Shown: positions 33,422 through 50,299, numbered from the stretch's first letter. The stretch: 50,485 nt of DNA from Thermoplasmata archaeon (GCA_022750375.1 JAKIVU010000008.1:1-50485); one strand, 5' to 3'. Notes: generated by a model from the sequence alone, not told the origin. Translations and numbers: made by a program.

Positions 33422-34402
33422 TCAGAACGCCGGGTGGGTCGGTCGATAGAACGCCGTCTTCAGTACTGGCGATTCTCCTCCGGGGGGAAACCGCACGCGG
33501 ACCGCCGAGGCCCGGCCGAACGCCGTGAACTCGAGCGAGTACCAGACCGCGCTCCATTCTCCCGCCGCGGAGACGAACGCCTCGCCGAAGTGGTACGTCG
33601 ATTCGATCACCTCGCTCTTCCGGCGGGCGAGACCGTACGACCAGTCGAGCGCCTCTTCCGCGGAGTGCGGCGCCCCGGCGTGAGGCGGCGGCTCGATCGG
33701 GGCCTCGACCGTGTACGGGCCGTCCACGATCCCCCGCCCGAAGGCGTACCGTGCCCAGCGCGTCCTGACGCGTCCGCCGAGGTTCTCTTCCGAGAGCATC
33801 ACCCAGTTGAGCGGGTTCCCCGTGGGAACGACGGCGGAGTAGCCGCCGTCCTTCATCCGTCTCCCGACTACGTAGCGGCCGGCGAGACGTATCGCGAAGT
33901 ACGCTCCGAAGAACGCCATGAGCCCGTAGACGGTGAGCAGATACCAGGCGAACGGCACGTGGTTCCGCTCGACGCCGAGGAGGAGGTAGAACGACGCGAT
34001 CGAGATCGCCATCGTGAGGAAGTTGATCGCGCGGTCGGCGTCGAGGTGGAGCGGCTTGTTCGAGAACGGCAACAACGGCGGGACGGCGAAGTTCGTGAAC
34101 CCGTCCTGGAGGATGTGGGCGCAGCCGCCGACCTCCATGACGAGAAAATAGATGTACGGCGACCCCGGGGCGAGCATCGGCGCGACGATCGCGCCGACGA
34201 CGGCGACGATCGTCACCCCGGTGAGCGAGTGGGTGATCCCGTGGTGGCGGAGGATCGGAAAGCGCCGCGCGATCGGGAAGAACAGGGCGTCCGCGTCCGG
34301 GAGACCGCCCGCGAGCGCGCCGGCCGCGAGGTACGACGGCTGGAACCCGACGATGCCGAAGGTGACGAGGTAGGCGACGAGAACGTGGGTGAAGAGGTCC
34401 AC
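33422..34402 (-). CDS. DUF457-type membrane-bound metal-dependent hydrolase-like protein (paralogue 2)
   Basis: MDLFTHVLVAYLVTFG...GALAGGLPDADALFFPIARRFPILRHHGITHSLTG; same architecture as 14933..15913. Confidence 0.84.
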   Translation of the reverse strand: MDLFTHVLVAYLVTFGIVGFQPSYLAAGALAGGLPDADALFFPIARRFPILRHHGITHSLTGVTIVAVVGAIVAPMLAPGSPYIYFLVMEVGGCAHILQDGFTNFAVPPLLPFSNKPLHLDADRAINFLTMAISIASFYLLLGVERNHVPFAWYLLTVYGLMAFFGAYFAIRLAGRYVVGRRMKDGGYSAVVPTGNPLNWVMLSEENLGGRVRTRWARYAFGRGIVDGPYTVEAPIEPPPHAGAPHSAEEALDWSYGLARRKSEVIESTYHFGEAFVSAAGEWSAVWYSLEFTAFGRASAVRVRFPPGGESPVLKTAFYRPTHPAF

Positions 34403-34886: not shown

Positions 34887-35708
34887 CTACTTGCGCGCGG
34901 GGTTGCGCCGGCGGGCGGCGACCCGGGTGACGAATATAAAGATGGCCCCGAAGAACGCCACCGCTCCCGCCACGTACCAGAGCGTGTAGTCCGGCGGGGG
35001 TCCCGGAATGTAGAACGACGCCGAGAACGATGTGGCGCCTCCCTTGAAGGTGACGAGGCCGTGTTCGTTCACGAGCGACACCGTGAACGTGTGGGTACCG
35101 GCCCCAAGGCCGAGGGTCGCGTACGAGAACGTGGCCGGGTACGTCTCTCCGGCCGTCAGGCTGGGCACATGGATCGTCCCCACCGGAGTGCCGTCGAGCG
35201 CAACGGTCAGCGGGAACCCGATGATCGTGCTCGCGCTGTTGGAGACCAGGGTGACGCTGAGGGTGTACGGTTGCACCACGGACACTACGTAGGTGAGGTT
35301 GATCGAGTCGTTCTCGGCCTGGTAGGTCGAGCTGACCTCGACCAGGATCGTGAGGACCTCCGCGATGTTGCCGACGGCGAGCAGGGTCGGGTGTCCCGAG
35401 ACGTTGGTGATCGCCGACTCGGAGGGCGTGACCGACACGCCGGTGAGATTCTCTCCGGTGACGGAGGCGAAGTAGGTGACGTTCCCGATCAGGGTGCCGT
35501 TGGCGGCGTACGCCGGGCCACCCGTCCCATTGATCGTGTAGTACTTGTTGGTGTTGTAACCGAGCACGGTCGGGCCGGTGATGTTCCCGACGAGTGAGCC
35601 CGTCGCCGCGGGCGTCGGATGGGCGGTCGCGACCCCCGGAGCGCCGAGTACGATGCCGCCCGACAGGAGTACGAGCGCGACGATCACGAAAGCGGAGGCG
35701 AGCCTCAT
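34887..35708 (-). CDS. Secreted, C-terminally membrane-anchored surface protein
   Basis: ATG at 35708: signal peptide [29 protein letters not shown]; multiple N-x-S/T sequons; C-terminal TM then [16 protein letters not shown] overlap with the aglB-like gene. Confidence 0.85.
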
Positions 35709-38700
35709 CGGCGCGTCCACCTCCGGCTGCGCCACCACCGGTACGTGATAACTCCCAAAACGAGCGCGAGGGCCGGGATGAACGAGAGGAGCGGCACGAC
35801 CCAGTCCGGGAGCACGGACGGTACCGGTCCGACCGACGGCCCCGTGACGGTGATCGCCGAAGTGCCGTTGGTCGTCCCCGTGCCCACGGAGACGCTGGGG
35901 ACGGCGAGCGTCGTGAACGCCTGGTACGACCCGCTCTGGAAGACGACCGATGCCTGGACCGTCACCTCGCCGACGGGAACAAAGATCGGCTCGACGGCGG
36001 TGAGATTGACGGAGTAGGTGTTGTTGGTGAACGCGGCCACGGTGACGGTCGGGCTGCTGAGCGGCCCCGAGACGCTCCGGAACGCCACCTTCCAGCCGAG
36101 GCTCGCGAGCCGCGACCCGTCGACGATGCTGAGGGTGACCGTCTCGTTGATGTTGCCGGTGTTCGCGAGATAGAACGGCACGAGCGCGTAGGCGACCCCG
36201 ATCTGGGCCGGCGAGGTCGCCGTCGACCCGATCGAGACACCGTAGTACGCGACGATGTTGACCGTCGGGGAGATCGCTCCGACCACGGTGCCGTTCGCGA
36301 GCTCGATGTCGATGATCACCGGCGGATGCACGCTTTCCGTGCTCGCGCTGACCTGGATGACGACGCTCGCGGACAGAGTGTTCCCACTGGGGCCGGGGAG
36401 GAGCGTGGCGTTCGTGAACGTGAAATTGAAACCCCAGAACGCCGGGCTCCCGACCGCGTGCACAACGACCGGGACATTTCCGGTGTTCCGCACGGAGAAC
36501 GCGAACGACGCGGTCCCGGGCGAGGTAACGGTCGCGTGATCGGTTCCCACGATCGACGCTTTCACGGTGTACGTGAACTTGTACGTCAGCGCGAGCGCGG
36601 TCGCGACGTTCCCGTTCACGACCTTGACGGTCTGCGACGCGGTGGCATTCGCGGGGAGTCCGTTCGGGGCGCCGAACGACGATGCGCTCACGGTGTAGCC
36701 CCCGACCGGGAGGGCCACGAGCAATCGGGTCGACGGCGTGACGCCCGAGAACGAGGTGCCGACGCCGAACGCGTTCGTCACGGTCACATTGATGTTGCCC
36801 AGTAACGCCGACGATCCCGTGGGCGGTGCGACAGAAACGGTATCGGTCCAGGTCGATGCGAGCAACAGCGTCACGGGCGCGACGGTGTTCAGGGAGACGG
36901 CGACCGAGGTGAAACCGGCGAGCGGCTCGCTCCCCCCACCTCCCGCGGCGTAGAGGGAGTACCGGCCGGGGAGGAGGCGAACGGTGAACGTCCCATTGGC
37001 CGCCGTCAGGACGGTGAGCGTCGGGTCGCCCGACGGCCCGTAGAGTCGTACGGTACCGCTGATGAGGCCGGGGACCCCAAGCGACATCAGATCGCCCGTG
37101 AGAGTGACCAGCTGGGTCGTCCCAACGACCGTCACCGTGCACGGAGCTCCGGCCGCGGCGAGAACGCAGCTCGCGCCGGGCGCCTCGACCCACGACGTCG
37201 CATAGGTTCCCGTCGGCCCCTGCGCGAGCGTCGTGACGGCGAGGCTGACCGCGTAGGTCTGGTTGCCGGGCAGCACCGCCGCGAACGACCCGTTCGTCAC
37301 CGGCACGAGAGCGCTCGCCCCGGACGGCGTCGTGAGGCTCAACGAAGCGTTGAAGAAGACCGGGAGGCCGTTCGTGTTCAGCAGCGACCCCGTGACACGG
37401 TATCCCGGCGTCGTGAGGGGAAGGGCCGGTGAAACCGTCCCTCCGGCGGCGATGGTGACGGGCAGGAGCGCGGCGTAGGTCGTCGTGCCCGTTTCGACCG
37501 TGGCGTACGCGGAGTAGCTGCCGACCGGCGCGAAGAACCCCTTCGTGTAGTTTGTCCCGTTCAGCGTGTCATTGAACAGGGCGGAGGAGAGGGTCACGGT
37601 CACATCCGGCAGCATCGCGCCGCCGGGAAGACCGATCGTGCCGGTGGAGTTGGTCTGCGCGACGAGCGTGAGCGAGAGAGAAGCCGCGGTCGCTCCGAAC
37701 GGTACCGACTCCGTTCGCGCGCCCGTGGGCAAGTAGAGCACCGACCCGCTCCCCGTCGGCGCCCAGCCGGTGACTTGGTACGTCCCCGGGGCGAGACTGA
37801 CCGTCCACGTCGGACCGCCGGAGAACGTCTGGTTCACCGCGGTGACGCTCCGCGCCGTCAGGTTCACGGTGATGGACGTTCCCGACGGGACGCCGGTGGC
37901 GACGACCGTCACGGGCACCGAGGCGAGCGCGAGCGAGAACCGGGTCATGGTCTGGAGGCCGTTCGGCGTGATCCCGCACGCCGAGGCGTTCGTGAAGCCG
38001 ACCGATCCCGCCGCCACGCAGTAGGAAGTCGCCGGTAGCGGGAGGGATGCCGGCACGTAGACCACGGCGGTACCGTCGAGCCCGGCGAGGGACGTGACGG
38101 TCGGTCCGCCGCTGCCGGCGGCGACCGACACTCGGGCCCCGCTGGCGGGCACGAGGACATTCCGTGGCAGCGTCGTTCCCACGAAGAAGCGCGCGGCCAC
38201 AGCGACCGAGGGCCGCAGGTTCACGTTCGTCGGGTAGGAGAGCGAGACCGACCCCAGGCCGGCGTAGACCGTCCCGATCGCCGACCGGGGCCCCTCGAGC
38301 GCGAGCACGCTGTACGTGCCGCGCGGAAGGTAGAACGCGTAGGAGCCGTTGGACGCCCAAGTGGTGACGGGAGTCCCGGCCGCGTTGTAGGCGAAGACGA
38401 CCGTTCCGGTCGCGTTCGTCGACGACCCGACGGGGGAGACCGACCCCGACAGCCGGATCGCGGGTCCGAGCGACAGCTGGATCGCCGCGTTGGGGGTCAA
38501 GGGCGACGCCGCGACCTCCCCGACTCCGGCGTAGAGCGTCGTGCCGACGTACCCGAGGGCGGTGACCGAGTAATTGCCGAGCGGGAGCGAGATCGACACC
38601 GCGCCGTTCGGGCCACTCAGCGCGGTCGTACCGTTGTTGCCGGCCGAGGCGATCTCCGCGAGCGGAGAGACCGAGCCGTTGTTGTACGACGGGATCGGCA

Positions 38701-41700
38701 GGAACTGGACGGGGATCCCGGCGACCGGGGCGCCGTTCGCCTCGACCGTCGCGGAGACCGTCGACATCGGGGTCAGCGTCAGGTTTCCACTGAAGCCGGC
38801 GCCGGGCGAGTCGATCGGGACGCGCAGCCCGAGCGAACGCTCGTTAGTGCCGGGCAAGGTCGCCGTGAGGGTGAAGTTGCCGGGCGTGTAGCCGGAGATC
38901 GAGAACAGCCCGGTAACGTTGGTGACGTTCGTGCGGACGACCCCGAGGGCGTCACCGAGCGTGACGACCGCTCCGTTCGCGGGAGTCCCGGCCGGGGTCA
39001 GCACGGAGCCGTGCACCTTTCCGACCGTGAGGCCCACGGTCGCGTTCGCCGGCGCCGCGGGAGGGGGCGAGACGGTCACCGCCGATTCCGTGAAGTTGTA
39101 CCCGCGATAGATCACGTTGTAGTTGTAGACCCCGGGCGGGATGTCGGAGAGCACGAAGGTTCCGCTCGCGTCCGTGGTCGCCGTGAGCTTCGTGAGATTG
39201 CCGGACCCCCAGAGGATGACCTGGGCGCCCGGCACGACCGGGTCGGTCGGCTGGAAGGCCGAGTTGTTCCCGTTGTTGAAGTAGACGAACCCTTGCACCG
39301 AAGCGGCGGGGAGCGTGATCACTTCCTGCAGGCTCGGCGCGTTGTACGAAAGGCCGACCGCGTTCGGGACGGTGATGTTGACGTGCTTCAGCAAGAGGTT
39401 CCCCTGCTGGCTCAACCCGAGGAACGTTCCGGTCGTGACGTTCAGCGAGTCGTTCCCCGGGGGAAGGACCACCGAGAACGTGCCGGTCGGCGAAGTGACG
39501 ACCGACTCGTGGGGGATGCCCCACTGGTCGAACACGGTCACACGCGCGCCGCCGACCGGCGCACCGTTCGGAAGTCGGACCTGCCCGTAGAGGGACTGAC
39601 CGGGGTAGTACTCCAGCATCGACTCCCCGCCCGAGAAGTACATTCCGGAGGAGGTGTTGGCGGTCCCGTTCGTCCGGGCGGCGAGGGAGAGCGCCTCGGG
39701 CGTGTTGAGCGGAACGAAGCAGTTCGAGTTGGTGCGGGCCTCCGTTGCGTTGGAGCAGTAGTAGGCGGTCTTGTAGACGACCTGGAAGTGCTGCAGCATC
39801 CATCCCGGCTCGATCGGTTCGGAGCCCGCGGCCCCCTCGAGACCCGGGATCCCGCCCGACAGTCCGATGTCGGTGCCGTTGTAGCCGAAGTACGTTCGGT
39901 AGATCATCGAATTGTAGAACGGCGAGAAATAATTGATGTAGTAATTCTCCGGGGAGACATCGGCGGGGACCTGGCCGAGCGGGTAGTAGTTCCCGTCCGA
40001 GCCGAGGACCGTGACGTTGAAGAACGACGCCGGAAGGCCGGCCGAGTCGATGATCCGGCCCGTGAGGTCGGCCGGCGCGTAGAAGATCCCGGTGTTGTCG
40101 CCGCTGAACGGGATCAGCCGGCTGTCGGCCATGTCGTACCGGATCGACCAGCCGGTGTACGCCTGCACGTCGTTGTAGATCTTCGCGACGCCATTCAGGG
40201 TCTGCGACGTCGCGAGGAAGTACGACATCGCAAGGTACATCGCGTTGTCCGCCGTCAAGGTGTTCGGATTCACGGGGAGGTACCGCTCGGGGTGGCCGAC
40301 GACGAGAGGAACGTCCGTGCTCACGTTGGCCAGCAGGTTGTGGAGCTGGGTGAGATTCAGGCCGTCCCCGGAGAGGATCGCGTTCAAGGTCGGAGGGAGG
40401 TATCGGTCCCCGGACGCCGCCTGTTCGGCCTGGAGCAGCGTCGTCGTCAGGACCGCGATCGCGTTCGACTCGTTCTGGGCGAGCAGGAACTGGCCCGCCG
40501 GGTCGATCCCGTTCTGGAAGTTGTCCGCGACGCTCGGGTGGTTGCCCTGGTCGATCGCCTGGAACCCGTAGTCCCACCAACTCACGAACGCGGGCCGTAA
40601 TGGAGGCGGCGTATTCGAATCCTGTTCGGCCAGCCAGTTGTATCCGGCGCTGTCGTACTGGTTCGACGTGTCGATCGTCGTGCCCGCAGCTCCGAAGTAG
40701 TTCGATTCGGTCGTGGTGTTTCCCTTCAGGAACGGCGGTAGGGTGTCGTAGACCTGGGCGGAGAGCTGGGTCTTCGTGTTGCCCGGAATCCCGGCGTCGA
40801 TCGATACCCAGACGTTCGGGAGGATGATCATGAGGATGAGCAGCATGATCAGAACGTGACGGGGTTTGAACGCCTTCCGGAACGCGGCCGCCTGGCTGCG
40901 TCGGTCGGAGAGCGAGGCGACGGTCCGACGGAGTTCCGGATACCCTCCGACGTCCAGCGCCCGGCGGATCGCTTCGGCGGGGAGGAGCGCGAACGCGGGC
41001 GAGCCGAGCAGGAAGAACTTCGCGGCCGAGATCGGCAGGTAAATGGAAAGGATCGCGAAGACGAGGAACACCACGTGATGGCGCTTGAACTTCCCCCGGG
41101 CGAGGACGTAGATGAAGATCGCGAGGCCGGCGAATGCGAGGAAGAAAGTGACGACGCCGTAGCCCACGACCAGTTCATCGATCGAGGGCGCCTGTGCCTC
41201 CGCGACGGTCGAGTAGATCAGTGTCTTCGCGAAGTACCCCTGCCCGGTAATGATGTTCAGGAAGTACGTCGGTTCGAATAACGCGAGGAATCCCGCGGCG
41301 CCGAGGACGAGAAGGAAGAGGGCCGGGATCGAGAAGACCCACGGAACGTCCCGCAGCAACAGGAACGGGAACAGGAGCGCCAGGATCCCGAAGAACAAGA
41401 GGAGCGGCAGGTCGAACCAGGCGGCGAACTGGTGTTGGACGATGTAGTACGGCATCGCCATCGGGAAGCCCACGAGTCCCACGATCCAGGTTGTGACGTA
41501 GAGCCCGAACGAATCGACGCGCCGGATCCGCTCGACCATCATCACGATGAGGAGCGAGATGCCGATCACGACGACCGCGTACGTGTAGCCCTGCCACGCG
41601 AGCGCGAGCGCCCCGAGCGAAACTCCCGTGAACACCGCCCACTTCACGGCAGTACGTTCGGTGCGGAGGAACGCACGTAACCCGGGCACGTACTGCGACG

Positions 41701-42307
41701 GATGGCGGTAATCCTCGACCCAACGCCGCGACCCGACCGCTTTGACGGTCCGGATGTACGAGTAGACCGTGACCAGGATCACGAAAGTGTAGAAGGAAAG
41801 ATAGTTCGCGTAACCGAAGATGGACGAATCGATATTCGCACTGAGGAACGGGAAGATCAGGGCGGCGATGAGCCCCATGCGCCGGCCGCTGACCTCTCGC
41901 CCGATCAGGTAGACGGGAAAGACGCCGAGCGCGGCCCAGAGCGGCGCCTGCAGGTCGAGGAACCAGGCGCCCGCGACGACGGCGTTGCCGCCGAACAACG
42001 GGGCGAAGACCATCCCGAGGATGGCGTTCATCCAGTCGAAGAGCGGCTCCCGCGGGTTGTAGCCGCCGGCAGGGTAGTGGAGCAGCGGGTCGAAGACGAG
42101 ATTCTGGTGGTTGAGGATGATGTACGTCGTGACGCGGGAGTGGTAGTACGAGTCCGACCCGCCCGCGTAGCTGAACAGCGGGCCGAACTGCTGGATGATG
42201 GGGTACGTCCAGATCGTTCGGACGGCGAACGCCATACCGAACGCAGCCAGCAGGATGGCGACCGTCCAACCGTGGCGGCCCCACCAACCCGAATGCGACG
42301 ACTCCAT
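35705..42307 (-). CDS. aglB: AglB/STT3-type oligosaccharyltransferase with very long C-terminal beta-sandwich repeat region and terminal TM anchor (2200 aa)
   Basis: N-terminal multi-TM domain with [11 protein letters not shown] and [20 protein letters not shown] motif at about 40562-40585; then successive CarboxypepD_reg-like units; C-terminal [31 protein letters not shown]. Confidence 0.9.
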
Positions 42308-42437: not shown

Positions 42438-42971
42438 TTAGTCGATCGTTCGAAAACGGTAGAAGACACGTCCGTCGCCGAGGTCGTACGGCTCCACCCG
42501 GACCGAGTCACCGACGTGGAGCTCGGGCCAGGGTCGGCCCTCGATGCGGCCGAACAGACGGAGCGGGACCCCATTCAGGTCGACGAGCCCGACCGAGAAC
42601 GGCACGTCGGCCTCCATGCCCATCGGTGCGCCGCCGAGCACCGCACTGAACGCATAGATCCGACCACGTTCGGGGAGGTCCTTCCACTCGAGCTCCTCGG
42701 AGTGGCATTTGGGGCAGGCGACCCGAGGGGGCCAGTGCCACTCGTCGTCCTTCGGACACCGAGTGGTGGAGAGCCGCCCCTCGCGAAGGCGGTCGTAGAA
42801 TCGGGAGAGCCGGGTCTGGTCGGGGCCTTCGAGCGGGAAGAAATCCAGAAGGAACGGGCGCTTCTCGCGCGGCCGCTCTGTCGGGGGCACCGCCCGAGGG
42901 ACAGACCGTGTCTCCGTGTCCGACGAGGCGGGCGTCGGTGCGATCCGCCGCGATTTCGCCCCCGCGCTCAC
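42438..42971 (-). CDS. DUF35/OB-fold zinc-ribbon protein (thiolase partner)
   Basis: RCPKDDEWHWPPRVACPKCHSEELEWKDLPERGRIYAFSAVLG; GTGA overlap with thiolase. Confidence 0.92.
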   Translation of the reverse strand: MSAGAKSRRIAPTPASSDTETRSVPRAVPPTERPREKRPFLLDFFPLEGPDQTRLSRFYDRLREGRLSTTRCPKDDEWHWPPRVACPKCHSEELEWKDLPERGRIYAFSAVLGGAPMGMEADVPFSVGLVDLNGVPLRLFGRIEGRPWPELHVGDSVRVEPYDLGDGRVFYRFRTID

Positions 42972-44152
42972 GATGCTCCACCCCCATGGTAGACCATGAC
43001 GGAGTGAACGTTCGCGCTGCCGGAGAGGTTGTGGACCAGCGCCCACTCCGGGTCCGGAACCTGGCGGGCCACCGGCACCTGCTTCGCGAACTGCTGGTAG
43101 ACCTCGACCGCCTGCGCGATACCGGTGGCGCCGAGCGGATGCCCGCAGCCGAGAAGGCCGCCCCTCGGGTTGACCACGAGGTCGCCGCCCAGGTCGCCTC
43201 GCCCGTCCGCGGCAAACGCTCCACCCTCGCCGGGAGAACACAGTCCCAACGCCTCGTACTCCACGATCTCCGAGATCGTGAAGCAGTCGTGGATCTCCGC
43301 GAAATCGATGTCGCCGATCGCGACCTTGGCGCCCCGCAGTGCCTCGCGCGCCGCGTGGGTCATCCCGGTCCACTTCGTGAGGGACCCGGCGTTCGCGAGG
43401 TTGTGGAAATCCGAGTACTGTCCGGTGCCCCGGACCCACGCCGGGGTCTCCGTGTACTTCCGGACGAACTTGTCGGCCACCAGAAGGACCGCCGCCGCGC
43501 CGTCGGTCATTGAAGAGCAGTCGCCGAGGCGAAGCGGGGGCGCAACGACCGGCAAACCGAGCAGTTTCTCCTTCGAGAACTTCTTCGCGTAGAACTGAGC
43601 GTGAGGGTTCGAGTTCGCGAACCGATGATTCTTCTCGGAGACCGCCGCGAGCTGCTCTTCGGTGGTGCCGTACTCCATCATGTGCCGCTGCGCCACCATC
43701 GCGAAGAACGGCGGGGCGGTCGCACCGTGCGGGCCGTCCCAGGGTCGGTCCATCACGCACCCCATCGCGGAGTTCGCCTCCGCCATCGAGGGCAGATTCA
43801 TCTTCTCCACTCCGACCGCCACGGCGATATCTGAAAGTCCCGCAGCGATCGCGGCGTACGCGGAACGTATGGCGCTCTGGCCCGACGCACAGGCCAGTTC
43901 CGTGCGCTGAATGACTCGGTGCGGTTGCAGTCCCATCTGCTCGGCCGCGAGCGGCGCCACGTGCGACTGGAACGCGAACCGTTCGGGCTCGGCCGCGCCG
44001 ACGAAGAGCGAGTCCACGTCCTCCGCACGCAGCGTGGGGATCGCACGGAATAGCGCGGCCCCGACCTCCTGGGCCATCTCGGCCCAGGTCGTCGGACGTA
44101 CGCCAAAAGCGGTGGTGACCCCGCCGACCAACGCCACCGGTCGTCCGGTCAT
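42968..44152 (-). CDS. Thiolase (archaeal/SCP2-like acetyl-CoA acetyltransferase family)
   Basis: RTELACASGQSAIRSAYAAIAAG nucleophile Cys; NPRGGLLGCGHPLGATG. Confidence 0.93.
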   Translation of the reverse strand: MTGRPVALVGGVTTAFGVRPTTWAEMAQEVGAALFRAIPTLRAEDVDSLFVGAAEPERFAFQSHVAPLAAEQMGLQPHRVIQRTELACASGQSAIRSAYAAIAAGLSDIAVAVGVEKMNLPSMAEANSAMGCVMDRPWDGPHGATAPPFFAMVAQRHMMEYGTTEEQLAAVSEKNHRFANSNPHAQFYAKKFSKEKLLGLPVVAPPLRLGDCSSMTDGAAAVLLVADKFVRKYTETPAWVRGTGQYSDFHNLANAGSLTKWTGMTHAAREALRGAKVAIGDIDFAEIHDCFTISEIVEYEALGLCSPGEGGAFAADGRGDLGGDLVVNPRGGLLGCGHPLGATGIAQAVEVYQQFAKQVPVARQVPDPEWALVHNLSGSANVHSVMVYHGGGAS

Positions 44153-45282
44153 CTCGGCTCCGCCCGCAGGGTCGCGGCGAGCAGGTCACCCGCGCCGCTG
44201 GTGGTGACCGTGCCTCCCTGGTCGTACGTTCGCCCTTGTCCTTCCCGCAGCGCGGTCGCGATCGCCCGTTCCAACCGGTCGGCCGGGGTGAGGAGTCGTG
44301 CGTCGTGGTGTCGGTCTCCCAGCCAGCGGAGGAGCTGCTCGACCGCGAAGAACGTCGCGAAGGGATTCACCTGGTTCTTCCCGGCGTATTTCGGCGCACT
44401 ACCGTGCACCGGCTCGAACATCGCATGCTCGGCCCCGATGTTGCCACCGGAGGCGAACCCCATCCCCCCCTGCAGGACGGAGGCGAGGTCGGTGATGATG
44501 TCCCCCATCATGTTCGTGGCGACCACGACGTTGTACCGCTCCGGATTCCGCACGAGCCATTGAGTGAAGGCATCCACGTAGGCGTAGTCGCGCTCGACCT
44601 CGGGGTACTCTGCCCCCACGCGGTCGAACGTCTCACGGAAGAATCGGCACCCTTCCATGACGTTCGCTTTGTCGACGCAGGTGACCCGGCGGACCCCGTC
44701 CTCCGGCGCGCCTCGAGGTCGGGCGCGGGCGAGTTCGAAGGCGTAACGCACCACCCGCTCGGCGCCTTTCCGGGTGATCACCCGGGTGTCGATGGCGAGC
44801 TCGGTGTCCCCGGCGCGCCGGAGCCGGCCCCGAATGGGGGTGTATAGGTCTTCGGTGTTCTCGCGCACGATCACCATGTCGACGTTCTTCGGGGTCCACA
44901 CCTCGCGATACTCTCCGCTGATGCGATGCTTCACCCCCGGGTAGAGCCGGCACGGCCGAACGTTCGCGAACAGGTCGAGGGATTCCCGCAATCCGAGCAC
45001 GAGGGCCCGTCCAGCGATGTCACCGTTCGCGAGGGTCGCTCCCGGCCAGCCGACGGCCCCGAGAAGGACGGCGTCCGCGCGATGCGCGGCGGCTTCTCCC
45101 TCGGGGTCCCACTCCCGACCGGTCTTCAGGAAGTACTGTCCTCCGCCGGAATACTCCGTCGCCCGCCACGGAGCCGCGCCTCCCTCGGCGAGGACGTTGA
45201 GGATCTTCACTCCCTCCCGGATCACTTCCGGGCCGGTCCCGTCACCGGGGAAGATGGCGAGCTCGTACCCGGCGTCCCTCAT
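44149..45282 (-). CDS. Isopropylmalate/homoisocitrate/isocitrate dehydrogenase family protein
   Basis: IFPGDGTGPEVI, IVRENTEDLYTPIRGRL, NMMGDIITDLASVLQGGMGFASGGNIG. Confidence 0.93.
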   Translation of the reverse strand: MRDAGYELAIFPGDGTGPEVIREGVKILNVLAEGGAAPWRATEYSGGGQYFLKTGREWDPEGEAAAHRADAVLLGAVGWPGATLANGDIAGRALVLGLRESLDLFANVRPCRLYPGVKHRISGEYREVWTPKNVDMVIVRENTEDLYTPIRGRLRRAGDTELAIDTRVITRKGAERVVRYAFELARARPRGAPEDGVRRVTCVDKANVMEGCRFFRETFDRVGAEYPEVERDYAYVDAFTQWLVRNPERYNVVVATNMMGDIITDLASVLQGGMGFASGGNIGAEHAMFEPVHGSAPKYAGKNQVNPFATFFAVEQLLRWLGDRHHDARLLTPADRLERAIATALREGQGRTYDQGGTVTTSGAGDLLAATLRAEPR

Positions 45283-45806
45283 GGCGGCGCCGCGGCGGCC
45301 GCCTTTCGCGCGGCGAGCTCGGTCCGGACCTTCTCCACAAGCCCGCCTGCGTCGAGCAGGCCGAGTAAGTGGGGAGGCAATGGGGGGAACGTTACCGTCG
45401 CGCCGGTCCGAACGTTCGTGATGCGACCGGCGCGCATTTCGATGCGCGCGGTGTCGCCCTGCTCAAAAATCGCCCGGACCCCGCGCGCTTCCACCGTGGG
45501 GAGACCGAGGTTGATCGCATTCCGGAAGAAGATCCGTGCGAACGAATCGGCGACCACCGCGCCCACCCCGATCGCCTTCATCGCCTGCGGCGCGTGTTCC
45601 CGGCTCGAGCCCGAGCCGAAGTTCTCGTCCGCGACGAGGATGTCCCCGGGGCGCGCCGCCTGGGCGAACTCCGGGAGCGCGATCTCGAAGACATGCTTCT
45701 TCAGCTCCTCCGGATCGATGATCGTAAGGTATTTTCCGGAGATGATGCCGTCCGTGTCCACGTCGCGGCCCAGGGTCCACACTCGACCCTCGATGACGTC
45801 CTTCAC
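45279..45806 (-). CDS. leuD: 3-isopropylmalate/homoaconitate dehydratase small subunit
   Basis: GRDVDTDGIISGKYL, DENFGSGSSREHAPQAMKAIGVGAVVADSFARIFFRNAINLGLP. Confidence 0.95.
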   Translation of the reverse strand: MKDVIEGRVWTLGRDVDTDGIISGKYLTIIDPEELKKHVFEIALPEFAQAARPGDILVADENFGSGSSREHAPQAMKAIGVGAVVADSFARIFFRNAINLGLPTVEARGVRAIFEQGDTARIEMRAGRITNVRTGATVTFPPLPPHLLGLLDAGGLVEKVRTELAARKAAAAAPP

Positions 45807-45818
45807 GCCGCCCCCCGC

Positions 45819-47102
45819 CTACAGGTACTCCCGGTGGTCGGCGACCTCACCGCGGATCGCCGCGGCAACGGTCGCCGCCGGCGACATCAGGTAGATGCGA
45901 GCCTCTTTGGCGCCCATTCGGCCCGGGAAGTTCCGGTTGGACGACGACGCGCAGACCTCGTCCGGCGCGAGGATCCCCATGTTGCCTCCGAAGCACGCGG
46001 AGCAGCTGGAGTTCGTGAAGACGGCGCCCGCGTCCGTGAACGTCTGGATGATCCCTTCTTTGAGACATTGGTCATAGATCTTCGTCGACGCGGGAGAGAC
46101 GATGAACCGGACCCCCTTCGCGACCTGGCGGCCCTTCATCAGGGCCGCCCCCTCCCGCAGGTCCTCGATCCGGGCGTTCGTGCAGGAGCCGAGGAACACC
46201 TGATCGACCTTGATGTGCTCGCGGACGACGTCCGGGAGCGGACGCACGTTGTCCGGGGAGTACGGGCACGCGACCATCGGAGGCATCCCGTCGAGGTCGA
46301 TCTCGACCACTCGCTCGTACTGTGCGTCGGCGTCGGGGGTGAGCGGATGCATCGCGTGCTTCGCGATCGGGGCGAGATAGTCGAACGTCTTCTGGTCGGG
46401 GGCGACCATCCCGCACTTCGCACCCATCTCCGTCGTCATATTGCAGATCGTGAACCGCTCGGGCATCGAGAGGGCTTCGATGGCCGGACCGGAGTACTCG
46501 ACCGACTTGTACGTCGCACCGGTCGTCTTGATCTCACCGAGAATGCGGAGGACGAGGTCCTTCGCCGTGACGCCGCGCCCCATCGTTCCGTGTACCTTTA
46601 CCTGGATCGTCGGCGGGACCTTGAGCCAGAGCTGCCCCAACGCGAGGACGGCGGCCATCTCGGTGGGACCGATGCCGGTCGCAACCGCTCCCATCGCACC
46701 GAGCATGTTCGTGTGGGAATCGGTGCCGACCGCCAGGTCGCCGGGGACGACCCATCCGTTCTCGGCGAGGATCTGGTGACAGATGCCGTGCCGGCCGACG
46801 TCGTAAAAGTGCGGTAGCTGCGTCTCGGCCGCGAACTTTCGAAGGATCCGGTGCAACACCGCGGCCCCTTCCGTGGAGGCGGGTACCCAATGGTCGATGG
46901 CGATGACCACGCGCTCGGGGTCCCAGACCTTCTCCGCGCCCATCTGATGGAACGGGCCGACGGTCTGCGCGCCCTGCTCGTGCATCATCGCGAGATCGAC
47001 ATTGCCCTCGATGATCTCGCCCGGTACGACGCGTTCCGCTCCCGAGGCGCGAGCGAGGACCTTCTCGGCCAGCGTCATACCGTGGCCGTTCGACGCGGTC
47101 AT
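45819..47102 (-). CDS. leuC: 3-isopropylmalate/homoaconitate dehydratase large subunit
   Basis: TVGPFHQMG, GTDSHTNMLGAMGAVATGIGPTEM, FLGSCTNARIEDLREGA, SSCSACFGGNMGILA. Confidence 0.95.
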   Translation of the reverse strand: MTASNGHGMTLAEKVLARASGAERVVPGEIIEGNVDLAMMHEQGAQTVGPFHQMGAEKVWDPERVVIAIDHWVPASTEGAAVLHRILRKFAAETQLPHFYDVGRHGICHQILAENGWVVPGDLAVGTDSHTNMLGAMGAVATGIGPTEMAAVLALGQLWLKVPPTIQVKVHGTMGRGVTAKDLVLRILGEIKTTGATYKSVEYSGPAIEALSMPERFTICNMTTEMGAKCGMVAPDQKTFDYLAPIAKHAMHPLTPDADAQYERVVEIDLDGMPPMVACPYSPDNVRPLPDVVREHIKVDQVFLGSCTNARIEDLREGAALMKGRQVAKGVRFIVSPASTKIYDQCLKEGIIQTFTDAGAVFTNSSCSACFGGNMGILAPDEVCASSSNRNFPGRMGAKEARIYLMSPAATVAAAIRGEVADHREYL

Positions 47103-48346
47103 GTCGTCACCGCCGCGATGCCCAGTGCGTCCACCATGGTCCAGAACTCGTCATCGGACAGACCGGGACGCTCGAAAAGGTGTCGGTACTCCCGGAGGAA
47201 GCGCCGCAAGTCATCTTTCGAGCGGGACTCTGTCCCGGTCTTGATCCGGTGCAGCAGCTCCAAAAGGAGCGGGTCGGGTGCGGTGATCCCCCGCTCCTTC
47301 AGCTTCTCGACGACCGCGGCTTTCCCGGTATGCTTTCCCAGGATCATCTGCCGACGCGCCCCCACCGTCTCCGGCTGTAGCGGCTCGTAGGTCAGCGTGT
47401 TCGCGAGGATGCCGTGCGTGTGGATCCCCGCCTCGTGCGAGAACGCGTTGTACCCGACGAGGGCTTTGTTCGGTGCGACCGGGATCCCGGAAAGTTCTTC
47501 GACGAGTCGCGACAGCTCGGTCAATCGTTCGGTCTGAATGCCCGTATGGATACCGTAAAGCGCCTCGAGCTCGACGACGACCTCCTCCAGCGAGGCGTTG
47601 CCGGCGCGTTCGCCGAGGCCGTTGACGCAGACGTGGGGAGCCCGCGCGCCGCATTCGATGGCGGTGAGCGTGTTCGCCGCCGCGAGCCCGAGGTCGTTGT
47701 GACAGTGGACGGAGAGGTCCTTCGGATGCACCCGCCGCTGAAACTCCGTCAGGTACCATCGAAAGGTGAGCGGAGTCATGATCCCGACAGTGTCCGCGAC
47801 CACCAACCGGTCCGCCCCCGCGTCCTGGACTTCCCGGTAAAGTCGTTCGACGAAATCGAACGGGGCGCGCACCGTGTCCTCGGTCACGAACGCGACATGG
47901 AGACCGGCCTCCTTCGCCTGACGGACCGACTTCAGGGAGACCGCTAGAACTTCCTCCTGCGTCATCCGAAGTTTGTACTTCAGATGGACTTGGCTCGCGG
48001 CAACGAAGATCGCGATATGGGTCGCCCCGCTCCGGATCACCGCATCCACATCCGCGGGCACGGTCCGCGCCGCGGCGAGCACTTTTGCTTTCAGGCCCGC
48101 GGACGCGACCAGTCGGACCGCGCGGGCTTCCTCCTCGGAGACTACCGGGATCCCGGCGTTGACCACCGACACCCCAATCTCCGAGAGCAGGGTCGCGACC
48201 CGGAGCTTCTCCTCCGGTGAGAAATGGACCCCGGGGGTCTGCTCCCCGTCCCGGAGAGTTTCGTCCCAGAAGACGATCGACTCGGGGATCCGACGTTGCG
48301 ACGCCGTCTGCGGATGATAGTTCTCGACGAGGCGAGGCTCCGCCAT
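47099..48346 (-). CDS. 2-isopropylmalate/homocitrate/citramalate synthase family protein (no C-terminal regulatory domain)
   Basis: IVFWDETLRDGEQTPGVHFSPEEK, SVHCHNDLGLAAANTLTAIECGA, NGLGERAGNASLEEVVV, HEAGIHTHGIL; ATG 48346; chain ends soon after the catalytic and linker regions. Confidence 0.93.
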   Translation of the reverse strand: MAEPRLVENYHPQTASQRRIPESIVFWDETLRDGEQTPGVHFSPEEKLRVATLLSEIGVSVVNAGIPVVSEEEARAVRLVASAGLKAKVLAAARTVPADVDAVIRSGATHIAIFVAASQVHLKYKLRMTQEEVLAVSLKSVRQAKEAGLHVAFVTEDTVRAPFDFVERLYREVQDAGADRLVVADTVGIMTPLTFRWYLTEFQRRVHPKDLSVHCHNDLGLAAANTLTAIECGARAPHVCVNGLGERAGNASLEEVVVELEALYGIHTGIQTERLTELSRLVEELSGIPVAPNKALVGYNAFSHEAGIHTHGILANTLTYEPLQPETVGARRQMILGKHTGKAAVVEKLKERGITAPDPLLLELLHRIKTGTESRSKDDLRRFLREYRHLFERPGLSDDEFWTMVDALGIAAVTT

Positions 48347-48442
48347 CCCGAGTTCTACGGGTTTCGACCCATTAAGGCTTAGCCGCCCGGGACCCCGTTC
48401 TTCGCGACGCGACGACGTTCCGCCGACTCCGGGGGCGTGACT

Positions 48443-48451
48443 GCTTAAATA
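48443..48451 (+). promoter_or_regulatory. TATA box of 2-oxoacid oxidoreductase operon
   Basis: gcttaaata upstream of inverted repeat CGGTT-CTCA-AACCG (48457-48470). Confidence 0.6.
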
Positions 48452-48505
48452 CGGTTCGGTTCTCAAACCGGACACAAGTCCGTTGCGACCTGTTTCCGGT
48501 GAAGA

Positions 48506-50299
48506 ATGACCACTCCCGCTGCACGCACCACACCCCTTTCCGGGGAGTCCGGACCGAGCGTCGCTCGACCTCCCACGGAGCTCACTGACCTCAGCGTGAT
48601 GATCGGCGGCCAGGGCGGAGACGGCACGCTCACGGTCTCCGACCTTCTCGGCCGATATTTCCGGAAATGCGGTCTCTACGTCTACACCTCGCGTAACGTC
48701 CTCTCCCGCATCCGGGGGGGCCACGCCGACGCCTCCGTCCGCGCCTCCCGCGACCCGATCGCGGCGATGAAGCCCGAGGTGGATGTGCTGGTCGCGTTCG
48801 ATAACGAAGCCGTGGAGATGGGGCGGACCGAGCTCGCCTCGCACGGCTACGTCATCTACGACTCGACCGCCTTCCACGTGGAACTCCCTAATGCGTCGGG
48901 CTTCCCGTTCGCTACGCTCGTCGGCGGGCCGCTGGGCCAACCGATCTTCAAGAACACGGCGGCCTACGGTGCCCTCTCCGTCCTGCTCGGTTTCGACCCC
49001 GTCAAGACCCGGGAGGTCATCGAAGACCGCTTCAAGCGACGCGGCGGCGAGGCGCTCGAGAAGAACCTCAAGGCGCTCGAGATCGGCCGGAAGGCGGCGC
49101 TCGAGGTGAGCGACATACCGAATCGCTTCTCGGTAGCCGACGGCGATGCCCACGACCAGATCCTGACCACGGGCAACCAGGCCGTCGCACTCGGATTCGT
49201 GGTCGGTGGTGGACGTTTCTTCGCGGGCTATCCGATCACACCGGCGACCGAGGTGATGGAGTACCTTCAGCGATACCTTCCCGCATTCGGAGGGATCGTC
49301 CGGCAGGCCGAGGACGAGCTCGCCGCGGTGAACATGATCATCGGAGCCTCGTACGCCGGGGCTCGCGTGATGACGTCGACGAGTGGGCCGGGACTCTCTC
49401 TGATGACCGAGGGAATCGGACACGCCGGCACCGCGGAGATTCCCATCGTGGTCGCGGACTGCCAACGGGTGGGACCGAGCACCGGCCAGCCGACCCGTCA
49501 CGAGCAGTCGGACCTATCTCACCTCGTCAACCTCGGCCACGGGGAATACCCGCGGTTCGTGATCACCCCTGCGACCCCAGAGGATTGTTTCGAGCTCACG
49601 ATCGACGCGCTGAACCTCGCCGAAAAGTGGCGTCTCCCCGTGATCCTGCTGTTGGACCAGGCGCTCTGTCAGAATACGACCACGAGCGCGCGGTTCGACC
49701 TGGGAGGGGCCCGGGTCGACCGGGGTAAGCGCCTCGGGCCGGCCGATGCGGCGGCGCTCACGGAGTACAAAGCGTACCGATTCACCGACGACGGAGCCAG
49801 CCCCTACGCCCCGCCGGGGACCCCCGGCCTTTGGGCCGAGATCACGGGCAACGAGCACGATGAGTGGGGCCACGTATCGGTCAACACGACCAACCGCGTG
49901 CGGATGATGAAAAAACGGATGGGAAAGATGGTACAGGCCCGGGACGAGCTCCCGCCTTCCCGCTTCTTCGGCGACGCCGATGCGAAGATCGGGCTGATCG
50001 GCTACGGAAGCACCTCGGGACCGATCCGCGAGACACAGGCGATCCTCGCCGCGCGCGGGATCAAGACGCGGTACCTGCAGGCCCGGACGATCTACCCGGT
50101 GCCAGTCCATGAGATCGACCCGTTCTTGAAGGGCGTCGACGTGGCGTACGTCATCGAGCACAACTACACCGGGCAGTACGGCCGCCTGCTGCGCGAGTTC
50201 CTCCCGTGGCACCACGCGAAGCTCCGGTCGATCGTGAAGTACGACGGCTACTCGTTCCGAACCCCGCAGATCATCTCCGAGATCAAGGAGGTCGCCTGA
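48506..50299 (+). CDS. korA: 2-oxoacid:acceptor oxidoreductase, fused gamma-alpha subunit
   Basis: MIGGQGGDGTLTVSDLLGRYF gamma domain fused to GYPITPATEVMEYLQRYLPAFGGIVRQAEDELAAVNMIIGASYAGARVMTSTSGPGLSLM. Confidence 0.94.
   Translation: MTTPAARTTPLSGESGPSVARPPTELTDLSVMIGGQGGDGTLTVSDLLGRYFRKCGLYVYTSRNVLSRIRGGHADASVRASRDPIAAMKPEVDVLVAFDNEAVEMGRTELASHGYVIYDSTAFHVELPNASGFPFATLVGGPLGQPIFKNTAAYGALSVLLGFDPVKTREVIEDRFKRRGGEALEKNLKALEIGRKAALEVSDIPNRFSVADGDAHDQILTTGNQAVALGFVVGGGRFFAGYPITPATEVMEYLQRYLPAFGGIVRQAEDELAAVNMIIGASYAGARVMTSTSGPGLSLMTEGIGHAGTAEIPIVVADCQRVGPSTGQPTRHEQSDLSHLVNLGHGEYPRFVITPATPEDCFELTIDALNLAEKWRLPVILLLDQALCQNTTTSARFDLGGARVDRGKRLGPADAAALTEYKAYRFTDDGASPYAPPGTPGLWAEITGNEHDEWGHVSVNTTNRVRMMKKRMGKMVQARDELPPSRFFGDADAKIGLIGYGSTSGPIRETQAILAARGIKTRYLQARTIYPVPVHEIDPFLKGVDVAYVIEHNYTGQYGRLLREFLPWHHAKLRSIVKYDGYSFRTPQIISEIKEVA

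Follow-up and report, generated by a model that had tools for sequence, protein, structure and literature searches.

Archaeal oligosaccharyltransferases (OSTs) have been described as single-subunit enzymes, among them AglB-Long of Archaeoglobus fulgidus (AfAglB), a protein of 868 residues (PMC3703281). Its metal ion is held by D47, D161 and H163, and the glutamate of its TIXE motif, E360, acts through water (PMC8342417). R154, D161 and H163 of AfAglB are the counterparts of R147, D154 and D156 of PglB, whose R375 touches the phosphates of the glycan-lipid (PMC7226087). For Thermoplasma acidophilum, an N-linked membrane glycoprotein is reported in a passage of PMC2952790 that cites Yang and Haug (1979). 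In the open-access literature on Thermoplasma, Thermoplasmatota, Methanomassiliicoccales and Lutacidiplasmatales we found no description of the giant AglB form analyzed below; the Cuniculiplasma paper notes only the presence of AglB genes, and glycosylation is absent from the main text of the Lutacidiplasmatales paper.

The window analyzed here is a stretch of 50,485 nucleotides from an archaeon of the class Thermoplasmata (GCA_022750375.1, JAKIVU010000008.1:1-50485), in which an earlier note had pointed out a giant homologue of AglB. The uninterrupted ORF of 2200 codons that it described begins with ATG and has zero internal stops; GC3 lies between 0.86 and 0.93 in each 200-codon block and codon-position GC is continuous from end to end, so there is no sign of the frameshift against which the note had cautioned. 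Pfam STT3 matches residues 46-448 and the Pfam AglB core residues 573-620, and the WWDYG motif stands where it had been placed, near residue 577. TIGR04154 (archaeo_STT3) aligns with residues 17-636 at E 9e-65, yet below the model's cut-off. The GT-C transmembrane domain and central core of STT3/AglB/PglB proteins are both represented by homologous regions: a PDB profile search matched 5gmy/7e9s (E 3e-36), and an AlphaFold2 model of residues 1-1000 (mean pLDDT 90.7, pTM 0.86) found 7e9s, AfAglB, as its best PDB fold match (E 4e-26). The model of residues 1001-2200 (pLDDT 89.4) consists of a continuous string of beta-sandwiches followed by one long helix at about 2170-2194, in agreement with the proposed ectodomain and second, C-terminal membrane anchor. 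Four stretches match Pfam CarboxypepD_reg, and there is a match to EMC7_beta-sandw; an APHP-like unit is present as claimed, although two NTGN units were found rather than one. The profile alignment with AfAglB reaches about residue 956, within the first beta-sandwich, so the added part comprises about residues 1000-2200, that is 1.2 kaa and not the 1.6 kaa first estimated. The features are collected in Table 1.

Table 1. Features of the aglB locus in window coordinates
Feature	Residues	Position	Strand	Basis or state
aglB (giant STT3/AglB), single copy	2200 aa	35705..42307	-	ORF; Pfam and TIGR04154 matches; no other STT3 found
GT-C transmembrane domain	1-520	40748..42307	-	STT3 Pfam; AlphaFold2/7e9s fold match
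D52, first DxD motif (GGSD; AfAglB D47)	52	42152..42154	-	kept
E87 in external loop 1	87	42047..42049	-	alignment to AfAglB
Replaced second DxD motif	161-170	41798..41827	-	AfAglB R154/D161/H163 aligned with S161/N168/L170
TVAE (TIXE motif)	367-370	41198..41209	-	kept
K430, aligned with AfAglB R426 / PglB R375	430	41018..41020	-	Arg in nearly all other rows
C-terminal core	521-895	39623..40747	-	homologous to AfAglB soluble part
WWDYG	577-581	40565..40579	-	Pfam AglB core match
First beta-sandwich	896-1000	39308..39622	-	still matched by AfAglB C-terminus
Extension, serial CarboxypepD_reg-like beta-sandwiches	1001-1925	36533..39307	-	Pfam; AlphaFold2
Two APHP/CARDB-like NTGN units	1926-2160	35828..36532	-	NTGN at about 1941-1944 and 2049-2052
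C-terminal transmembrane helix and basic tail	2161-2200	35708..35827	-	AlphaFold2; hydropathy
Partner gene	273 aa	34887..35708	-	N-terminal signal peptide or anchor; CARDB-type beta ectodomain; membrane helix and basic tail at the C-terminus; ATGA overlap

The host is a soil archaeon, and named relatives include UBA184 and Ca. Lutacidiplasma silvani, on which grounds we assign the window to the Lutacidiplasmatales ("the order" below meaning Ca. Lutacidiplasmatales and kin). In the source genome, which is fragmented (17 contigs, 69% complete), aglB is the sole STT3/AglB detected. A giant AglB is encoded by 99 of the 106 genomes of the order; 78 match Pfam STT3, almost always once, with frames mostly of 2170-2270 aa on long-enough contigs. 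No second AglB, the other ground for doubt named at the outset, was found in the order with Pfam or with our own or canonical query sequences, and apparent double AglBs in the order look like fragments at contig ends. Our survey covered the phylum Thermoplasmatota. Closed ORFs measure 2185-2411 aa in the order and 1851-2382 aa in the class sample, and across the class Thermoplasmata some 30 families have predominantly frames of about 2050-2440 aa, an AglB of 2.0-2.4 kaa ending in a transmembrane helix being the rule; the large size once remarked upon is real, and it is a class-wide trait rather than an oddity of one genome. In closed long AglBs the membrane helix lies 4-16 residues from the C-terminus (the one exception among those sampled, L163, was unscored by a simple hydropathy rule), and it is absent from short forms. 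Other classes of the phylum have AglBs of 0.9-1.4 kaa, 2.3-2.7 kaa or about 3.2 kaa. The class AglBs are collinear over about 2100 residues, the extension included. Most short forms bear a few homologues of the extension's first units, which suggests that the extension grew stepwise. In a quick tree of the AglB core the class sample forms one clade except for L164 (SH-aLRT 100), as does the order (SH-aLRT 99), and long versus short form requires two changes. Three side observations may be added: in two loci of the order (L038, L084) the ORF begins about 215 codons further upstream and so measures 2411 and 2407 aa, with some uncertainty as to where translation starts; in the AglBs of about 3.2 kaa (L202, L203, L207, L208; f48, f49) WWDYG occurs only at about 950-1010, with extra sequence both preceding and following the core motif; and four genomes of f51-f53 (G484, G485, G486, G487) have two STT3 genes each, of about 0.9-1.0 and 1.1-1.4 kaa where both are listed.

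Directly downstream of aglB lies the partner gene, which overlaps the aglB stop as ATGA. A CARDB protein occupies this position in nearly all class aglB loci with enough downstream sequence, and in 82 of 95 loci the aglB stop is overlapped by a start codon as [AGT]TGA. Of 44 partner sequences, 43 match PF07705 (CARDB) with E values up to 1; for the partner in the window E is 6.6e-5, over the cut-off. A profile built from 44 partner sequences gave full-length matches in f36 and in all class genomes sampled, and partial CARDB matches elsewhere; outside the class and f36 no partner was found. It is not adjacent at the loci of short AglBs, of long AglBs from f43-f47, or of the forms of about 3.2 kaa (f48, f49). 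In the PDB the profile matched archaeal CARDB domains and Ig folds; homology to eukaryotic OST or TRAP was rejected, as ribophorins, OST48, TRAP and any other OST subunit were absent from the 60 best matches. This CARDB membrane protein is a candidate second subunit of the giant AglB, and the stop-codon overlap suggests matched production, though overlap and co-occurrence would not in themselves prove a complex. Further downstream, a YdjM-type membrane protein (33422-34402, minus strand) is kept in 51 order loci. Upstream, genes on the minus strand at 42438-49501 encode a ChsH2-type OB protein, a thiolase, an isocitrate/isopropylmalate dehydrogenase, a split aconitase and an HMGL/homocitrate synthase-like protein; these adjoin aglB only within the order.

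We propose that the gene encodes the sole OST of this archaeon, a doubly anchored protein in which the GT-C membrane domain and the core that binds sequons would be followed by a 1.2-kaa string of beta-sandwiches leading back to the membrane through the C-terminal helix. The giant AglB would work with the small membrane protein from the overlapping next gene, and lipid-linked glycans would most likely still be transferred to N-X-S/T sites of exported proteins, its own ectodomain among them, at a metal site predicted to keep D52 and the TIXE glutamate with the second DxD pair replaced. Anchored at both ends, the extension would arch over the membrane; together with the partner it would probably form a surface scaffold that keeps client proteins close to the active site as they emerge, a role that we liken to that of accessory OST subunits in eukaryotes. 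To this reading as a whole, a still-active OST with remodelled metal site, partner and scaffold, we give a probability of roughly 0.6. Its foundations, namely architecture, conservation, gene overlap with co-occurrence, motif loss and sequon enrichment, are established in this analysis; what we infer from them is that the protein is an active enzyme, forms a complex with its partner and serves as a scaffold.

For the extension, our preference for a client-protein scaffold has one main rival: an ordinary OST might carry it as a surface coat or adhesin, in cells without a rigid wall, with the CARDB protein as another coat protein. Surface proteins often contain CarboxypepD_reg, CARDB and APHP-like domains, and identity per 50-residue block is lower in the extension (0.10-0.28) than in the core (0.20-0.59), both of which favour a coat. 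A further point in its favour comes from one family (f8; L278-L290 and L182), which we take to be Methanomethylophilaceae and whose giant AglB homologues of 1818-2013 aa have lost the DxD pair, TIXE and WWDYG, D52 included except in a few rows, and have nonetheless kept the architecture and the partner gene. By keeping the body and not the motifs, f8 shows that the giant body has some value without catalysis, and the ectodomain may have a role apart from the enzyme reaction. Length, unit order and end anchor are, however, conserved class-wide, unlike those of a typical fast-changing adhesin, and the matched production suggested by the stop-codon overlap also speaks against a coat. We regard the coat as unlikely.

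We then compared the active-site motifs with those of known enzymes. The second DxD motif reads D-H-H in AfAglB, D-X-D in PglB and D-X-E in yeast Stt3. In the order it is N-Y-L: of 86 rows, 80 have N168 and 6 have D at this position, 82 have L170 and 4 have Q there, and 84 hold Ser or another non-Arg residue at the position of AfAglB R154; outside the order most rows read D-H-D. At the position of AfAglB R426 every order row with data has Lys, and 98% of the other rows have Arg. The remaining motifs are kept: D52 in 83 of 83 order rows with data, the TIXE/SVSE glutamate (TVAE in the window) in all rows with data, and WWDYG across the order. E87, two residues away from the counterpart of AfAglB H81 in the alignment, is Glu in all 76 rows with data of the window's family and Pro in most others. 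In the region of the DK/MI motif (Ser/Thr pocket) the window reads D728-S-R-L731, the fourth position being Leu or Met class-wide, and neither consensus is fitted exactly. Since the whole order lacks the second DxD motif, the retained SWWDYGF is not by itself proof of a canonical active site, and we class the protein as an STT3/AglB homologue, as the earlier note did, and not as a canonical OST. Altered second DxD motifs also occur in L179 (VHD), L181 (GYD), L184 (LFD) and L218 (RHY), so changes in this motif have arisen several times within the phylum.

A second rival follows from these replacements, namely that catalysis was lost and an envelope scaffold remains, exported proteins being un-N-glycosylated or served by another enzyme. 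Counting against an active OST, two of the three protein metal ligands of AfAglB (D161 and H163) are absent and the phosphate-site Arg is Lys, and f8 is a case of like architecture persisting with every motif lost. Sequon counts bear on this question. We compared sequons (N-x-S/T) with their mirror image ([S/T]xN), which is identical in composition. The window AglB has 45 sequons. Residues 1001-2160 contain 33 of them where composition predicts 14.5 (z 5.7), more than chance would give, and the mirror-image motif occurs 14 times in the extension (33 to 14, P 0.008). Across 62 order extensions the ratio of sequon to mirror is 2300:886, or 2.6-fold, these counts from related genomes being non-independent. 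In a sample of contigs with genes called by a home-made caller, exported proteins gave 377:149 (genome G058) and 153:83 (own genome), and cytosolic proteins of the same two genomes 270:292 and 95:104, with no enrichment. In f8 the excess is gone (227:209). A second contrast family (f19; L291-L296 and L180), apparently Thermoplasmatales, with G178 presumably T. acidophilum and G172 presumably T. volcanium, has R-M-H or R-A-H as the second DxD motif in its giant AglB; it keeps the excess (507:252) without the DxD pair, which we count for an active OST, together with the N-linked glycoprotein reported for T. acidophilum (PMC2952790).

In sequence terms, the order extensions stand in clear contrast to f8 and to cytosolic proteins, and this asymmetry lends indirect support to activity. 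Strong enrichment in exported proteins and ectodomain, order-wide retention of D52, TVAE and WWDYG, and the failure to find another STT3 in the order all argue against a pseudo-enzyme, which we hold to be improbable; on the strength of the sequon excess, an enzyme active with a remodelled metal site is probably the better description than a dead one. Self-glycosylation as a special feature was rejected. The sequon number per class AglB ranges from 8 (L171) to 79 (L181), with 100 in L197 outside the class, and although glycosylation of the ectodomain is probable, as had been suggested, its excess resembles that of other exported proteins, so nothing marks it as a special substrate of its own enzyme. 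Two loci of the order (L226:7346-10999 and L274:2395-8121) encode exported proteins that are beta-propeller-like, rich in sequons and marked by NVSVI-type motifs in repeated form; they are likely glycoprotein candidates.

A further reading of the extension is that of a NOMO-like translocon factor fused to an OST, with a role at the protein-export channel comparable to that of NOMO in the eukaryotic BOS complex, where NOMO is itself a string of prealbumin-like domains in the ER lumen (PMC11186639). Of the PDB sequences, NOMO2 matches the extension profile best (E 1e-39). The match, however, is due mostly to the initial two or three units, which hit many NOMO repeats, and is non-collinear, and the fold search returned only generic bead-on-string matches (query-normalised TM-score at most 0.14), with no specific global match. 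With no collinear array of prealbumin-like domains as in NOMO found by profile or fold search, orthology was rejected and we consider such a factor very improbable. Finally, although the source genome is fragmented and incomplete, misassembly or a chance fusion of two genes has a negligible likelihood, since orthologues of like length with the end anchor occur across the class, the full-length ORF recurs in dozens of separate assemblies and in complete one-contig genomes, and codon-position GC is even along aglB.

Two findings are new beyond the earlier claims, the coupled partner gene and the loss of the second DxD motif throughout the order. We tentatively extend the doubly anchored, still-active OST to a wider hypothesis, possible though doubtful, in which Thermoplasmata would have a two-subunit enzyme of giant AglB and CARDB protein, a separately arisen archaeal counterpart of multi-subunit OSTs, and Lutacidiplasmatales, lacking the second DxD ligands, would use a different metal shell or none. 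If true, a class-wide 2-kaa AglB with second anchor and coupled partner would be the first archaeal multi-part OST, testable in T. acidophilum, which is cultured and apparently carries a giant AglB. The need for the second DxD metal ligands is an unsettled point of OST mechanism, and their replacement while sequons are still selected would be a natural experiment on it; f8, a body without motifs, would separate scaffold from catalysis.

Among known systems, AfAglB (868 aa; PDB 7e9s, 5gmy, 3waj) shares with the window protein the GT-C fold, the first DxD Asp, the TIXE Glu, WWDYG and the C-terminal core followed by a beta-rich unit. It differs in lacking the 1.2-kaa extension and C-terminal membrane anchor, in binding metal through a D-H-H second DxD where the window protein has N-Y-L, and in its phosphate-site Arg426, which is Lys here. 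The short AglBs of Thermoplasmatota (L189-L196, L205, L206, L209, L215, L218; 0.9-1.4 kaa) share the STT3 core and mostly a few units of the extension start, but have neither the terminal anchor nor the adjacent CARDB partner, and in nearly all of them the second DxD is intact. NOMO and EMC7 share a broad domain family with the extension, as judged by the EMC7_beta-sandw and NOMO2 matches, but without collinearity, and neither has an OST domain. Eukaryotic OST resembles the proposed complex by analogy only, as a catalytic GT-C subunit with single-pass membrane proteins bearing beta ectodomains; in the window protein the putative scaffold is instead fused to the catalytic chain, and the 60 best PDB matches of the partner's profile include CARDB and Ig-like structures but no OST subunit.
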